A stretch of DNA of 64,000 nt from a virus: the IMG/VR virus record IMGVR_UViG_3300032297_000372, positions 1 to 64,000 of that record. One strand, given 5' to 3'. Position numbers and translations under genes: made by a program. Of this stretch, positions 57,230 to 64,000 are shown piece by piece. Below the pieces are notes generated by a model, which was not told the origin of the DNA, made no database searches, and saw only the letters and a program-made list of their open reading frames with translations. Within the stretch, counting starts at the first letter, position 1, and each line of letters opens with the position of its first letter.

Positions 57230-60200
57230 ATGCCAATTTCACAAATCGAAAATATAACAAGAACTAATACCATTGATGAATGGAGAATACAGACTAATAA
57301 ATCTGCCTCTGATTTAAATGATCTTGGTTTTTCATCATATGATAAAACGCAAGGTACTTTGATTATATCAAATACTGCGTCATTACGAATTACTGCATCA
57401 GGAACTCCTTTTGAGGTTGTTAATAGTGTTCTCTTTCAGAATAATCTATCGTTAGCAAATAACTTTTATCTAGGTACTGTAGGCACTCCAACAGGTAATG
57501 CTATTATTGGTGGTACAGTAAGTATTGGTGGTTCAGGTGCAACTTCATTAAATGTCGCTAATGGTGTAACTGTTGGTACAGATTTAGCGGTAACTAGAAA
57601 TATTTCTGCATCAAACGCTGCTTTTAGTAATCACATAACAGTAGCAAACAACATAACAGCCTCAGGCATTCTTCGTTTACCTGGAACGGTTGCAGAAAAA
57701 GGAAATGTAATATATGCAAATTCTGGTTCAGCTTATATTAATACAGTTTTTGCATCAACAATTAATTCAGCAAACGTAGCTTCAGATAACGTAAGAGCAT
57801 TGCAAGCAACCTTTGACGTTCTGAACCTTATTGGTTTAGGCACAATGTTAAATTTGCAGGTTTTCAATGATGCGTTCTTAGTTGATATTATTGCTACAGG
57901 TAACAGTTATTTTGATGTTGCTAATGTTCGTTCATTAACAGTTAACTCTTCAGCAAACATAGTAACATTATCTTCGAATACTTCTACGATTAATAACGCA
58001 ATCTTAGGAAATGCCACTGTAACACGAGCTAACGTCACAAACATGACGGTAGACCAAACAGGTAATGTTGTAACTTTAATTTCGAATCTATCATTAATCA
58101 ATACTGCAAATATTTTAATAACAAATGCAAACGTTGGTAATATTCGTAACTTTAGTTTAGGTACTGGTAGTATTACAACAGCTGCAATAGAAAATCAAAC
58201 TTTCAATGTTGCCGTTGGTAACACAAGCACAATACAATCAGCAAACATTGTTACATTACAATCTAATCAAGCGACAATCAATACTGGTAATGTAACAAGA
58301 ATCTTTGCTTCTAATGCAAATGTAAGTACAGTAAACGTTTCCTCATTAGTAGATGTTACTACTGGTGGTTTAGTTAGAGTTGCTGCTGGTGCTTCTCCAG
58401 AAACAACTGTATTGCAAGTTGCAGGTAAAACTAACTTAGCTAACGTAGTTATTGACGGCAATTTAACTGTATCGGGTGCGTTCACACAAACCGGAACTGT
58501 AAACTTCCAGATTCAGTCTTTCTTATTGAATGCAAATACGGCTACAAATCTTGATGCTTCGATTATTAATAAGAGAGCTCTAGGTGATAATGCTATTATT
58601 AATTGGGACGAATCTGTAGATCAGTGGAAGATTTCTACAGGTAATACATACTCACAATTAAACAGAATACTCGATGCTGGTCAATTATCATCACAAGTAA
58701 CTAATACAAGTATTACTGATGTCGCAACTCCTGCTGCGGTTAACACAGTACATACGATTTCTATTACTGCAAGTCATTATGCCAATGCAGCATTCTTACA
58801 AGCAAATACTCCTAGTCACGTATCGAATAGTGCGTCTAGTTATGCTAACTCTGCATTCTTGCAAGCGAATACTCCGAGTCATGTATCTAACTCTGCGGCA
58901 CTCTATGCTAACGCAGCCTTTATAGTTGCAAACACACCAACTCATGTGGCAAATTCTGCTGCTTTATATGCTAATGCGGCATTTATCGTTGCGAATACAC
59001 CAAGTCATGTTGCCAATAGTGCAGGTTTCTATGCTAACGGTGCATTTGTAAAGGCTAATACCGCAGATATCAATGCTAATGCAGCTTCATCATACGCTAA
59101 TGCGGCATTCACTCAAGCTAACTCTGCATTCGTATCAGCAACTAACGCTCAACTTGCCGCAGATGCCGCACAAGGAACAGGTTCAGCATCTTACGTTTTA
59201 GCAAATACAACTACCAATACCGCTTTAGCAGGATTTGCAGTTGCCAACTCCGCAGCACTTTATGCTAATTCAGCTTTCTTGAGAGCTAATAATTCATTGT
59301 TAAGTTCTGGCGGAACAATGACTGGTGATTTAACCATGTCAGGTAGTAACTCGATCAATGCATCAAGAGCTAACATTGCTTTTGATTTATTAGGTGTTAG
59401 AACAGGTGCATCTGGTGCTAGAATTGTGATGAACTATGACATCATTCAATCTGCTGATCCATTGTTCAGAGCATCACTTGTTGTGGATAGAGGTGTAAGT
59501 CCTAACGTTGAGATTCGTTGGAATGAACCTACAGCAAAATGGCAGTTCACGAATGATGGTTCTACTTACACCGACTTTGGTGGTAGTACCGCACCTGCCG
59601 TTGCCGGAGGTACAAATAGACAGATTCTAGTACAGACTGGTGTAGGTGCAACAGGTTTCATTGATGCTCCTTCAACTGCTAATAGATACTTACAATGGAC
59701 AGGATCAGCATTTACTTGGGCTGAGGTACCTAGTGCAGACTTAACTGAACTGAGTGCAAGTAATCTAACATCTGGTACTATACCTGCGGCTAGAATGCCG
59801 GCAACTGGTTCTTTTGGATTTAATATTACAGGTAGCGCAGGTTCAGCATTGACTGCTGCAACAGCAACAACTGCTACAACAGCAGTCAATGCCACAAATG
59901 CAGTAAACATTTCTGGTGGTAATGTACAAAATGCTTTAGCCTTTACAGTGTTAGGTACTCCAAGTATCGGTGACGGAACATCAACATTCTATAATAGACT
60001 TTATATTAGAGATGGCGGCACAACAACAAGTAAAACTGATCCTTCAGATACAGCAGCATTAAAAGTTTTAGGTGATATAGCTGTCTCTACTGATGTTTGG
60101 GCAACTTTGTTTAATGGTACCGCAACATCAGCTCGATATGCTGACTTAGCAGAAAAATATTTACCTGATGCGGATTATCCTGAAGGTACTGTAATGGCCA

Positions 60201-60490
60201 TAGGTGGTGAAAAAGAAGTTACTGCCGCTTCTGATGTTGACTTCAGAGCTATAGGTGTGATATCATTGAAACCTGCATTTAGAATGAATGAAAATCTAGA
60301 GAACGGTGTTTATGTTGCACTGAAAGGTCGAGTGCCTGTACGAGTAAAAGGTGAAATCAAAAAAGGTCAACCTATTGGCACAAGTGATACTTTAGGTGTA
60401 GGTAAACTTAATGCACGTAATCATTTTGCTATTGCATTAGAAACAAAAACAACTGAAGAAGAAGGTGTAATAGAAGCATTAATTCTTTAA
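57230..60490 (+). CDS. Tail fibre protein with 21-residue repeats
   Basis: 1,086 residues. N-terminal ENITRTNTIDEWRIQTNKSASDLN recurs in fibre proteins of T4-like marine phages; the middle is Asn/Ala/Thr-rich. Six 21-residue repeats (YANAAFxxANTPSHVxNSAxx) span residues 517-642. Then come GGTMTGDLTMSG and a C-terminal domain YADLAEKYLPDADYPEGTVMAIGG, the YADLAE-type end typical of such fibres. Probably contacts the host. Confidence 0.8.
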   Translation: MPISQIENITRTNTIDEWRIQTNKSASDLNDLGFSSYDKTQGTLIISNTASLRITASGTPFEVVNSVLFQNNLSLANNFYLGTVGTPTGNAIIGGTVSIGGSGATSLNVANGVTVGTDLAVTRNISASNAAFSNHITVANNITASGILRLPGTVAEKGNVIYANSGSAYINTVFASTINSANVASDNVRALQATFDVLNLIGLGTMLNLQVFNDAFLVDIIATGNSYFDVANVRSLTVNSSANIVTLSSNTSTINNAILGNATVTRANVTNMTVDQTGNVVTLISNLSLINTANILITNANVGNIRNFSLGTGSITTAAIENQTFNVAVGNTSTIQSANIVTLQSNQATINTGNVTRIFASNANVSTVNVSSLVDVTTGGLVRVAAGASPETTVLQVAGKTNLANVVIDGNLTVSGAFTQTGTVNFQIQSFLLNANTATNLDASIINKRALGDNAIINWDESVDQWKISTGNTYSQLNRILDAGQLSSQVTNTSITDVATPAAVNTVHTISITASHYANAAFLQANTPSHVSNSASSYANSAFLQANTPSHVSNSAALYANAAFIVANTPTHVANSAALYANAAFIVANTPSHVANSAGFYANGAFVKANTADINANAASSYANAAFTQANSAFVSATNAQLAADAAQGTGSASYVLANTTTNTALAGFAVANSAALYANSAFLRANNSLLSSGGTMTGDLTMSGSNSINASRANIAFDLLGVRTGASGARIVMNYDIIQSADPLFRASLVVDRGVSPNVEIRWNEPTAKWQFTNDGSTYTDFGGSTAPAVAGGTNRQILVQTGVGATGFIDAPSTANRYLQWTGSAFTWAEVPSADLTELSASNLTSGTIPAARMPATGSFGFNITGSAGSALTAATATTATTAVNATNAVNISGGNVQNALAFTVLGTPSIGDGTSTFYNRLYIRDGGTTTSKTDPSDTAALKVLGDIAVSTDVWATLFNGTATSARYADLAEKYLPDADYPEGTVMAIGGEKEVTAASDVDFRAIGVISLKPAFRMNENLENGVYVALKGRVPVRVKGEIKKGQPIGTSDTLGVGKLNARNHFAIALETKTTEEEGVIEALIL
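58778..59155 (+). repeat. Six 63-bp tandem repeats in the tail fibre gene
   Basis: Copies begin at 58778, 58841, 58904, 58967, 59030 and 59093. The DNA copies differ mainly at third codon bases, so the protein repeat is kept by selection. Confidence 0.88.
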
Positions 60491-60491
60491 T

Positions 60492-60965
60492 ATGATAACT
60501 ATTGATGAGTTTGAGAATTTTATACAACATGATTTGGTATATGAACAAAAGTTAATTTCTATACTGGATGACCTAGGTCGACAAATTTATATTGATGATC
60601 TAGGTCAACTTCATTCCAACTACGGTAAAACCGTAAAAGTTGAGGGTATGGAAAAATATAATGCACAAATATATGACACATGTTGTGAATTGCAATACGT
60701 ATATAATCATAATGGTGTCGTGACTTGTCATGCTTTCAGAGCTTATGAAAATTCTGCAAGTTTTGGAACTCATACTGATCCTGATGATGTTTATATACAC
60801 GTTATTTGGGGAGAAAAAACTCTTCAAATAAAAGATGAAATTCACATATATCGTTCTGGTGAAAGTGTATTCATACCTTCTAATACCCCACACAAAGCTA
60901 TAAACGAAAAAGAATCTTTAATATTAAGCTTTGGTCTTGAAAAATTTCTAGTAGATAAATTATGA
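60492..60965 (+). CDS. JmjC/cupin-like Fe(II) oxygenase, cassette gene
   Basis: 157 residues. A single small cupin: FGTHTDPDDVYIHVIWG with H94-x-D96, and SGESVFIPSNTPHKAI with H134, giving the HxD...H triad of JmjC/cupin_4 hydroxylases. The GEK (107-109) and LQI that follow match the family's GxKxW place. It overlaps the radical SAM gene by four bases, so the two are linked in translation; it may hydroxylate a virion protein. No 2-oxoglutarate residue assigned. Confidence 0.72.
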   Translation: MITIDEFENFIQHDLVYEQKLISILDDLGRQIYIDDLGQLHSNYGKTVKVEGMEKYNAQIYDTCCELQYVYNHNGVVTCHAFRAYENSASFGTHTDPDDVYIHVIWGEKTLQIKDEIHIYRSGESVFIPSNTPHKAINEKESLILSFGLEKFLVDKL

Positions 60966-62020
60966 ATTGGATGTTTTATTTAAAGACCACTGAAACATGT
61001 AATTTAAATTGTAAACATTGTTTCACTAATGGCATTAATGGTCCTAAAATTTTCTGGAATGCCATAAAGATTACTGATTGGATTAAACGTTTCAGAGCAT
61101 ATTACCCATCTAATTCTGATTCTATACATTGTGAATTTCACGGTGGTGAGCCGTTTTTAGTTCCTGTTCATGAAATGCGTCATGTGTGGGAAAATTGTAA
61201 AGACTTGTGGCCTGCCATGACTTGGGGAGCAACAACGAATTTAGTATTTAAGATGGATCAAGAACATTATGATTTTATAGAAGAAGCTTTCGATAATAGA
61301 ATAGGAACTTCTTGGGATCCTAAAATTAGATTTGCCAATAATAAACAATATAAACTTTGGCATAGTAATGTTAAAAGCCTATTGAATCGTGGCGTAACTG
61401 TAAAACTTTTTATAAGTGTAACACAAGATACATTAAATATAGAACCCATAGTATTGTTACGTTGGATTCGTAGGTTAGGTGTACAAGAAGTTTCGTTTGA
61501 GAGATTAACTCAGAATGGTAACGCTAAAAAATATCCTGAAATATTTCCTAACAATATTGAACAAGATAACTGGTTTCTAAAATTATACGAACAATCTGAG
61601 AAATATGGTGCCAGAGAATGGTTCGATAATGAATTTTTAGAAGTAATTTATTCAAAATTTGATACCGGATTCTTGAAAGGTGGAACTTTCTGTAGAGATT
61701 GTGAAGAAAAGATATTCACTGTAAATGCTGACGGTACATTATCAGGATGCCCAAATTCTGCTCCAGAATTTCAATTTGGACATATAAATGATAATCTGGA
61801 AGATGTTATAAATAGTGAAAGAAGAATAGAAAATATATCATGTGAACGTAGTAGAGATCCTAGATGTTTTTCATGTGATGTGTTTGAATATTGTGGTGGA
61901 GACTGTCATCAATTAGAATGGCAAAATGATGTTTGTGGAGCTCCAAAAAGTTTAATGAGATATTTAAAAAATAAACAAAAAAATAAAGTTTGGATATTAA
62001 AAAATGGCAACCTTAACTAA
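60962..62020 (+). CDS. Radical SAM/SPASM peptide-modifying enzyme
   Basis: 352 residues. Radical SAM C-x3-C-x2-C at C13, C17, C20 (ETCNLNCKHCF), HGGEP at 60-64 for SAM binding, and a C-terminal SPASM region with nine cysteines (C244, C247, C263, C294, C302, C305, C311, C315, C325). Such enzymes form thioether, carbon-carbon or other links on peptides. The gene runs 17 bases into the CHxS gene, so that protein is its likely substrate. Confidence 0.88.
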   Translation: MNWMFYLKTTETCNLNCKHCFTNGINGPKIFWNAIKITDWIKRFRAYYPSNSDSIHCEFHGGEPFLVPVHEMRHVWENCKDLWPAMTWGATTNLVFKMDQEHYDFIEEAFDNRIGTSWDPKIRFANNKQYKLWHSNVKSLLNRGVTVKLFISVTQDTLNIEPIVLLRWIRRLGVQEVSFERLTQNGNAKKYPEIFPNNIEQDNWFLKLYEQSEKYGAREWFDNEFLEVIYSKFDTGFLKGGTFCRDCEEKIFTVNADGTLSGCPNSAPEFQFGHINDNLEDVINSERRIENISCERSRDPRCFSCDVFEYCGGDCHQLEWQNDVCGAPKSLMRYLKNKQKNKVWILKNGNLN

Positions 62021-62549
62021 TAATATTAACCCTCAAAATATCGTTGATAGATTTGCTGATTATGTGACAGCCACAGCTAGTGCAGGAATTACATGGGGAA
62101 CTAATGCTAAACCCTTTAGTCAATTTGATGCGGGTTATCTTGGAGGAACAACCGCAGGTAGACCTATTGGTATATCAGGTGGAAATATTTCTGCTGTTGG
62201 TGGAACAATCACAGCTTCAGCAATTTACAACACTCTAGTTAATGAAACCGCACAATATACTTCTATTAGAAGTTTAAGAGCTATTCTACATTTAACCGGA
62301 TCAGGCAACCAGTTCGATCAAACAGCTATTGCTTATATGAGTTATGGATCGTATGGGCAGAGTATTGGTTCACCAGCAAATGCTGGCGTCTCAGCAGGAT
62401 CGACAATAACTAGTAGTGGTTTAGAATCGCTTTTTAATAATTTAAGATCATCGTATAATACTGCAAGAGCAGCCACAACTACGATAACTGTTACTGTTTG
62501 TCACACATCGTGTCATTCATCCTGCCACGGTTCTAGAGGAAGAAGATAA
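62004..62549 (+). CDS. CHxS-repeat protein, likely modified by the radical SAM enzyme
   Basis: 181 residues. The C-terminus is VCHTSCHSSCHGSRGRR: three CHxS units (C166, C170, C174) followed by a basic end. These are the only cysteines in the protein. The N-terminal 160 residues are Ser/Thr/Gly/Ala/Asn-rich and soluble, like a phage tail protein rather than a short leader. A modified C-terminus on a virion protein, or a RiPP-like product after cleavage, are the options. Confidence 0.78.
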   Translation: MATLTNNINPQNIVDRFADYVTATASAGITWGTNAKPFSQFDAGYLGGTTAGRPIGISGGNISAVGGTITASAIYNTLVNETAQYTSIRSLRAILHLTGSGNQFDQTAIAYMSYGSYGQSIGSPANAGVSAGSTITSSGLESLFNNLRSSYNTARAATTTITVTVCHTSCHSSCHGSRGRR

Positions 62550-63265
62550 TGAATATTGTTGAAACTACTGCACCCATCTCGATTGAAAATTTAAAAAAAT
62601 ATTTTAATGACCAGACTACTTTTTTTGTTATTGATTATAAAGACAGTAGTTTAAAAGGAACAAAACTATTAACATATCTTTCGAATTTAGATATACCTTC
62701 TGACATAAACTTTACAGGTTGTTCTAGTGATGAATGTTTTGATATGATTAAAGAATACCTACATTCTACAATGATTGTTAATATTCCTGCACTTGAGTCG
62801 GCAGTTATCAATATATTACATCAAACTAAAAATTTAGTTCCAGTAACAGATAAAAAATTTATTGACGATAATAAAGAAATTTTAGATAAGTGGATTTCAA
62901 AACTAGAAAGTTTATCCCTATTCAATATGCATATTATTGGAAACGGAATGTTCAAAGAATTTGTTTCTGAGTTTGAAGTCGATGCATCAACTGAATTGAT
63001 CGGTGTTAATTTTATTAGTTTATTAAAGAATGAACATTTTTATTCTTTCTATAATAATACCGATAAAAAATCATTAAAGTTTTATACACATTATTTTAAT
63101 GATTACATGTTCAAAGGTAAAAATATGTATTCATATTGGGCTAATGAGAATAATCCTTTATTTTTATTGACATACGGTATTTCAGAAGGCCTTGTAGAAG
63201 GAAATTCTTATAACTCATACAAACAAAAAACAATCGAGGAATTAGAAAATGTTACACCTGTTTAA
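62549..63265 (+). CDS. Cassette protein of unknown function
   Basis: 238 residues, mostly helical, no signal peptide, two cysteines close together (GCSSDECFDM). It begins at the last base of the CHxS gene stop. Position suggests a role in handling or using the modified protein. No family recognised. Confidence 0.65.
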   Translation: MNIVETTAPISIENLKKYFNDQTTFFVIDYKDSSLKGTKLLTYLSNLDIPSDINFTGCSSDECFDMIKEYLHSTMIVNIPALESAVINILHQTKNLVPVTDKKFIDDNKEILDKWISKLESLSLFNMHIIGNGMFKEFVSEFEVDASTELIGVNFISLLKNEHFYSFYNNTDKKSLKFYTHYFNDYMFKGKNMYSYWANENNPLFLLTYGISEGLVEGNSYNSYKQKTIEELENVTPV

Positions 63266-64000
63266 TAAAGTTTACTTAGAGTTCGATGATAGAATAGAAA
63301 ATCATCTAGATCGAGTTGTTATTTCAGAACAATACGGAGATCAAATGTATGATCTTTTGGAAAAAGCTGTTCTTGGAAAATTAATACTATATGGTAAAAG
63401 TTTCGAAGAAGTTGTTGGTGACGACTTTTTAGGATTCATAAAATCAATAAAAGAATATGGTGATAACTCTGGTAAAAAAATCATTATTTTCTGTGATAGA
63501 ACTTCATACAAAAAATTTATGGCTCATTGGTTTAGATCAACATTACCTAATTTAGATTATGACGGATTTAAAACTATTGTAGATCATACGATTTATAATC
63601 AACGAATAATTTCGAATACCCAACTATCTTCAATGTTCAGTGTTAATCTAAATTCACTATGGGAAGATTTGGATGATATCGAATCTGCGTGGGCAAACGC
63701 ACAATCTGTAAATAGAACCTCGTTGAAATCTTTGAATTTAAATCATACATATGAATTTTTATTATCAACTTATTTGTCTGGTGATAATTCACATAAAGAA
63801 GCCTTGAAAAAAACATTGCACATGTTTTTACGCCGTTGGTTTATAGAAATGTTTGTTGACAATCGACAAATGGTTTTATTGAATCTTAATAACCATAAAT
63901 TCTTAAGCACATTTAATATTGATCCTAAATTGATAGATTTAACTCGTTTAGATCCTTTAGATGTAATAGAACAATTTGAATCTTACTCCGATGATGAAAT
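63249..64000 (+). CDS. Cassette protein of unknown function (3' partial)
   Basis: Starts ATG 63249 inside the preceding gene (17-base overlap) and stays open to the window end (250 codons). Product begins MLHLFNKVYLEFDDRIEN; helical, basic in the centre (FLRRWFIEMF). No recognised domain. Confidence 0.68.
   Translation, partial: MLHLFNKVYLEFDDRIENHLDRVVISEQYGDQMYDLLEKAVLGKLILYGKSFEEVVGDDFLGFIKSIKEYGDNSGKKIIIFCDRTSYKKFMAHWFRSTLPNLDYDGFKTIVDHTIYNQRIISNTQLSSMFSVNLNSLWEDLDDIESAWANAQSVNRTSLKSLNLNHTYEFLLSTYLSGDNSHKEALKKTLHMFLRRWFIEMFVDNRQMVLLNLNNHKFLSTFNIDPKLIDLTRLDPLDVIEQFESYSDDE

Follow-up and report, generated by a model that had tools for sequence, protein, structure and literature searches.

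Radical SAM enzymes that act beside a repeat-bearing or folded partner are known from several systems. Hxs systems combine a His-x-Ser repeat partner with two or more radical SAM enzymes, and the PapB ranthipeptide and DynA/YhhB cyclophane maturases are SPASM enzymes that belong with a short precursor, leader, protease or exporter. The anaerobic sulfatase maturase, also a SPASM enzyme, modifies one residue of a folded protein, and the modification is kept. Among phages, clusters of radical SAM genes have been called highly unusual (PMC2853527, PMC12390700) and their genes have been described as metabolic or unexplained (PMC2853527, PMC5332604, PMC12390700); phages are also reported to carry Fe-S assembly genes (PMC5332604). 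Many radical SAM genes occur in 332-Vera, CP220/CPt10 and marine T4-like phages, in 332-Vera within the structural gene cluster, and the available parts of these reports propose neither a partner nor a virion function for them. On the side of the predatory bacteria, the MAT fibres of Bdellovibrio are described as having a signal peptide, a ~130-aa beta domain, a trimeric fibre and often Peptidase_S74 (S74), a chaperone domain of phage fibres (PMC10769870); the available text of that paper does not describe a radical SAM cassette of the kind reported here.

The cassette and its relation to known maturation systems

The window analysed here is a stretch of viral DNA of 64,000 nucleotides. It contains the first third of a 9.2 kb cassette (60492 to 69709), which continues past the window end in the parent record, a 91.6 kb IMG/VR contig of a T4-like myovirus in which homologues of terminase, sheath, tube and portal lie downstream (by sequence inspection). 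The enzymes of the full cassette are one JmjC/cupin oxygenase, four of the radical SAM type and three 2OG-Fe(II) oxygenases, and they accompany a 181-aa protein with a Cys-His-x-Ser (CHxS) tail. The features are as follows.

57230..60490, plus strand: fibre gene (1086 aa), directly upstream of the cassette, with a match to the tail fiber family phrog_19602
60050-60487, plus strand: YADLAE C-terminal domain of the fibre (its last 146 aa)
60492..60965, plus strand: cupin/JmjC-type putative Fe(II) oxygenase (157 aa) with an HxD...H triad (HTD...H)
60962..62020, plus strand: rSAM1, radical SAM/SPASM enzyme (352 aa), phrog_1802
62004..62549, plus strand: CHxS-tail protein (181 aa), putative substrate and probable virion protein, phrog_35144
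62499..62546, plus strand: C-terminal tail CHTSCHSSCHGSRGRR, aa 166-181 of the 181-aa protein
62549..63265, plus strand: conserved 238-aa cassette protein, function unassigned, phrog_20767
63249..64343, plus strand: conserved 364-aa cassette protein; the window stops at 64000 and the remainder lies in the parent record
64345-65397: rSAM2
between rSAM2 and the first 2OG oxygenase: 206-aa ORF
65872-66330: first 2OG oxygenase
66331-67356: rSAM3
67331-67849: second 2OG oxygenase
67830-68759: rSAM4
between rSAM4 and the third 2OG oxygenase: conserved 138-aa gene
69134-69709: third 2OG oxygenase

The open reading frames and overlaps given in a first-pass annotation of the window were all reproduced, with the cupin/JmjC, rSAM1 and substrate genes overlapping successively by 4 and 17 bases. 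That annotation had described a unit of five genes, and the two further conserved genes that it included do belong, but the cassette actually extends to 69709. The cupin gene matched Pfam Cupin_2 (E=6e-10) and JmjC_2 (E=1.8e-6, above the cut-off), whereas rSAM1 fell below the cut-off of Pfam Radical_SAM (E=3e-4) and exceeded that of SPASM TIGR04085 (36 bits), in agreement with the SPASM identity first assigned to it. PHROGs families were matched by the cupin, rSAM1, substrate and 238-aa genes. The substrate contains three cysteines in total, every one within the tail, just as had been stated, and the tail pattern occurs once in the window compared with 0 occurrences in 100 dinucleotide shuffles. 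Past the cassette lies a gene of 110 aa with relatives among the families for assembly of L-shaped tail fibres, and more fibre genes follow it. Giant fibre genes with ANAAFxxANT-like repeats are found downstream of the cassette at L006:14292-20000 and in L007, and a 144-aa Dps-type ferritin-like protein (L007:12238-12672; G000 about 86238-86672) is encoded just ahead of the terminase; its counterpart in a relative discussed below, G370, is 69% identical.

The motifs of the enzymes are well kept among relatives: CxxxCxxC is present in 101/104 distinct rSAM1 sequences, a GGEP-type SAM motif in 102/104 and the SPASM auxiliary-cluster cysteines in 104/104, and the HxD/E...H facial triad is present in 94 of the 96 cupin relatives. 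By these motifs, rSAM1 fits the radical SAM/SPASM enzymes and the cupin protein fits the JmjC/cupin Fe(II)-2OG oxygenases as putative members. None of the cassette enzymes scored reached a curated NCBIfam maturase cut-off. Filing under Hxs, as the first-pass annotation had proposed, was rejected, as rSAM1 scored 27.6 bits against HxsB (cut-off 370), rSAM3 scored 31 bits against HxsC (cut-off 268), and the substrate matched none of the NCBIfam precursor families, including HxsA. The cassette does share with Hxs a repeat partner and multiple radical SAM enzymes, but its tail has a Cys before each His, an RxRR end and a fibre context. The nearest full-length SPASM families to rSAM1 are the PapB ranthipeptide and DynA/YhhB cyclophane maturases, with 51, 44 and 36 bits, far below the curated cut-offs of 340, 450 and 445 (51.4 bits for the PapB-type family NF047865); unlike these systems, the cassette genes scanned show no short precursor, leader, protease or exporter. 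The anaerobic sulfatase maturase 4k37 is a sequence relative in the PDB (E=8e-9), and the cassette would resemble it in directing a SPASM enzyme to a folded protein; the maturase, however, is one enzyme for one residue, whereas the cassette pairs several enzymes with a repeat tail. For the 238-aa protein, a PDB fold search gave no significant match (best E-value 0.5).

The tail protein and its linkage to rSAM1

Both rSAM1 and rSAM3 match the same 7 of 50,697 phage records, namely Phosso, Atu_ph07 (two records), SURPRISE13, FLC6, FLC8 and DT01; the gene order cupin, rSAM1, tail gene is present in all four reference-phage loci read, and in FLC6 and FLC8 the match extends over the tail too. A tblastn search of phages with the window substrate gave no match, because just the 16-residue tail is widely shared, and relatives were instead found by the tail DNA pattern, which is present in at least 120 stretches in IMG/VR, and by rSAM1 alignment. 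A scan of IMG/VR with rSAM1 only, and thus blind to the tail, yielded 379 relatives, of which 80 were kept for analysis. Wherever these loci had sufficient downstream DNA (76/76), the next cassette gene was the tail gene, usually with an overlap of 7-17 bases to rSAM1 and, in five cases, about 1 kb further on; the 238-aa gene came next after it in 73/75 loci, and the cupin gene was upstream of rSAM1 in 78/80. We also searched for the substrate without the radical SAM gene, an occurrence that the first-pass annotation had named as counting against its proposal. Among the tail records, 40 showed no rSAM1 within the stored stretch; when these were searched whole, rSAM1 was located elsewhere in 30, and the remaining ten are fragments of 5.6-38.7 kb. 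This search therefore left the proposal unrefuted, and linkage in both directions supports a dedicated modification cassette with the CHxS protein as its partner. The carriers are many and unrelated, with jumbo phages, T4-like phages and one podovirus-like contig among them, a wide spread which the earlier description, supported in part, had missed together with the chromosomal version described below. In the searchable literature, we found no published description of this cassette. A second architecture (L054, L019, L116 and others) has two tandem short tail genes (126-140 aa) next to a different radical SAM family with a CFVDK motif and several paralogues, with rSAM1-4 sometimes on the opposite strand; some tail loci in the reverse search, such as L019, have the CFVDK-type gene directly after the tandem tail genes.

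In 66 distinct homologues from the rSAM1-seeded scan, the three Cys, the three His and the R-x-R-R of the tail are invariant, and the fourth position of each CHxS unit is S, N or A; the whole proteins of a diverse set are 22-56% identical to the window protein. The Cys, His and Arg codons of the tail differ synonymously among homologues, indicating that selection acts at the protein level. The tail forms the very C-terminus in about 150 ORFs (IMG/VR tail-pattern loci and reference phages), and most of the bodies are without cysteine. At L123:7832-8515, the repeat is expanded, with 14 cysteines, and the RGRR end is retained, and in the proteins of Bdellovibrionota, which end in YCHTNVPTPPPCHASRGRR, FQYCHGNFPPPCHGSRGRR, VNYCHSNHCSHSNHGSRGRR and FVCNSNFICHSNCYTPPPKSRSRR, the repeat is shortened or altered and RxRR is retained. 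A constant end with a variable Cys/His core may point to a recognition end plus a modified core.

Fibre, virion and the chromosomal version in Bdellovibrionota

A fibre with the YADLAE domain lies immediately upstream of the cassette in 73/78 loci, which, together with a relative that is naturally devoid of the cassette, substantiates the association with the fibre gene drawn in the first-pass annotation. In this relative, G370 (locus L352), the upstream structural proteins are 52-61% identical to those of the window phage, and rSAM1 and the whole 9.2 kb cassette are absent. Residues 1-919 of the G370 fibre align to residues 1-922 of the window fibre (41.5% identity), after which the G370 fibre ends in Peptidase_S74 (E=3.6e-16) in place of the YADLAE domain, and about 50 bases past it lies an 81% identical homologue of the 110-aa post-cassette gene. 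Thus, in this one pair, the fibre end and the cassette were gained or lost together. The YADLAE domain itself is more widespread than the cassette, being present in Campylobacter phages and in PA5oct, where no cassette was seen; the PA5oct protein with this domain has been confirmed in the virion by MS. In the Campylobacter phage CPt10 (L357), the stretch examined has its radical SAM genes close to a sugar-nucleotide gene, outside any such cassette; the CP220/CPt10 paper, in its available part, reports 11-12 radical SAM genes.

In Atu_ph07, the MS-detected virion proteins fall in clusters that include CDS 170-215 (PMC6102473), and the gp numbers of the paper match the RefSeq tags (gp215 major capsid, gp198 portal, gp181 baseplate wedge). 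The CHxS-tail protein is gp170, the first CDS of this cluster. The cluster range given in the available text implies that gp170 is present in the virion, and the tail protein is therefore probably a virion protein, as had been supposed.

When 84,980 species genomes were scanned for the tail, 24 stretches matched. With chance matches and phage-like contigs in metagenome-assembled genomes set aside, the chromosomal cases examined are Bdellovibrionota; matches without a true tail (e.g. in Streptomyces and Pseudoclavibacter) were taken as chance. Carriers of rSAM1 make up 16 of the 291 Bdellovibrionota species sampled, and in one of them the gene lies on a contig of 4.15 Mb, next to genes that resemble those for ribosomal protein S2, EF-Ts and UMP kinase. 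Several predator cassettes adjoin proteins in which a pilin motif at the N-terminus is combined with Peptidase_S74 (S74 in 8/8 cassette-linked proteins, N_methyl above the cut-off in 5/8). Like the MAT fibres (PMC10769870, available part), these proteins would place a phage-type fibre-end domain on the predator surface, but most of the eight start with the pilin motif, and they stand next to a radical SAM cassette. The predator tail proteins have no obvious signal peptide, a difficulty for their export and a point against the reading proposed below. A ~200-aa partner in the predators was considered as a homologue of the phage fibre end, a reading not adopted here (hhalign probability 32%, wrong register). 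In the rSAM3 tree, phages and predators separate with weak support.

A candidate maturation module for the fibre tip

We consider it likely that the cassette matures a protein destined for the distal tip of a fibre used in cell contact, and that it acts on the Cys/His tail. The CHxS-tail protein would be a small, folded, fibre-associated virion protein, whose C-terminus, with the RxRR end as its most constant part, may be recognised by rSAM1 in the cytoplasm. Assisted by the other radical SAM enzymes and the 2OG-Fe(II) and JmjC oxygenases, rSAM1 would then modify the Cys-His-x-Ser repeats, plausibly by C-H activation at Cys and His, giving thioether or carbon cross-links, and by hydroxylation. 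Once modified, the protein would stay attached to the particle at the end of the fibre and would there meet the surface of the target cell; some Bdellovibrionota probably mount the same module, encoded on their chromosomes, on a pilin-type fibre. The description that fits the locus best is that of a previously unrecorded maturation module for the fibre tip, common to phages and certain predatory bacteria.

A different reading takes the GxHxH iron sites at the tip of T4 gp37 as its comparison: layers of Cys and His would form a metal-binding chain at a multimeric fibre tip and the enzymes would adjust or load the ligands. The strict conservation of Cys and His around a variable x and the expanded repeat of L123 would suit such a chain, as would the A-type Fe-S carrier (PF01521) encoded above the cut-off in 12/50 cassette records, a count made without a matched control, as terminase relatives were mostly short contigs; the carrier may support the radical SAM enzymes. 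Metal binding itself, however, does not need four radical SAM enzymes, and the substrate is predicted to be well folded (pLDDT 90), with an alpha/beta body rather than a fibrous trimer and a low-confidence tail. In the PDB, the substrate had no significant match by fold search (best E-value 0.39), and by sequence it matches phage proteins only. We regard the metal chain as improbable. Marginally less probable still is that the tail serves as a docking tag only, with the enzymes modifying the body, the fibre or another protein. An invariant tail on variable bodies would also be expected of a recognition tag, but repeat number and spacing vary while the last RxRR is constant, as for a target plus a tag, and cysteine is missing from most bodies.

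The first-pass annotation had also allowed for a released peptide, and a RiPP-like cassette producing a modified bacteriocin, signal or toxin would account for a SPASM enzyme adjoining a precursor with Cys/His repeats, an arrangement known from ranthipeptides and cyclophane RiPPs; a precursor-like gene beside dedicated modification enzymes is a RiPP feature present at all 76 loci. Yet the precursor is a predicted folded domain of about 180 aa without a short core, no N-terminal column other than Met1 is invariant in the diverse alignment, as a conserved leader would require, and a scan of cassette genes in the window turned up no family of leader peptidases or exporters. On these leader, protease and exporter results, the cassette is not filed as a RiPP, even if the system would work like RiPP maturation. 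Fibre synteny and the Atu_ph07 virion cluster further argue against release, which we judge very unlikely. Earlier papers, in their available parts, label phage radical SAM genes metabolic or unexplained (PMC2853527, PMC5332604, PMC12390700), but it is hardly credible that those of the cassette, with the 2OG genes, serve as auxiliary metabolic genes with no relation to the tail protein: the linkage holds at 76/76 loci and recurs on the chromosomes of bacteria, and the genes overlap.

Extending the maturation reading, we tentatively propose that phages and predatory bacteria share a Cys/His fibre tip built by a multi-radical-SAM pathway, which would engage or breach the target envelope and whose iron demand would help to explain phage Fe-S genes. 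If the maturation reading is true, it would be a first case in which phages use radical SAM enzymes to rebuild one of their virion proteins chemically; phage radical SAM clusters would gain a function and phage Fe-S assembly genes (PMC5332604) a testable explanation, and phage fibres would be linked to the predatory life of bacteria. With several types of enzyme around a target of 16 nearly constant residues, the chemistry may be new. Two predator cassettes also encode a long radical SAM protein (L238:7571-9310 and L241:13568-15280); that of L238 is of the B12-binding type, near KedN5-type C-methyltransferases (84.5 bits), a similarity which suggests C-methylation there.
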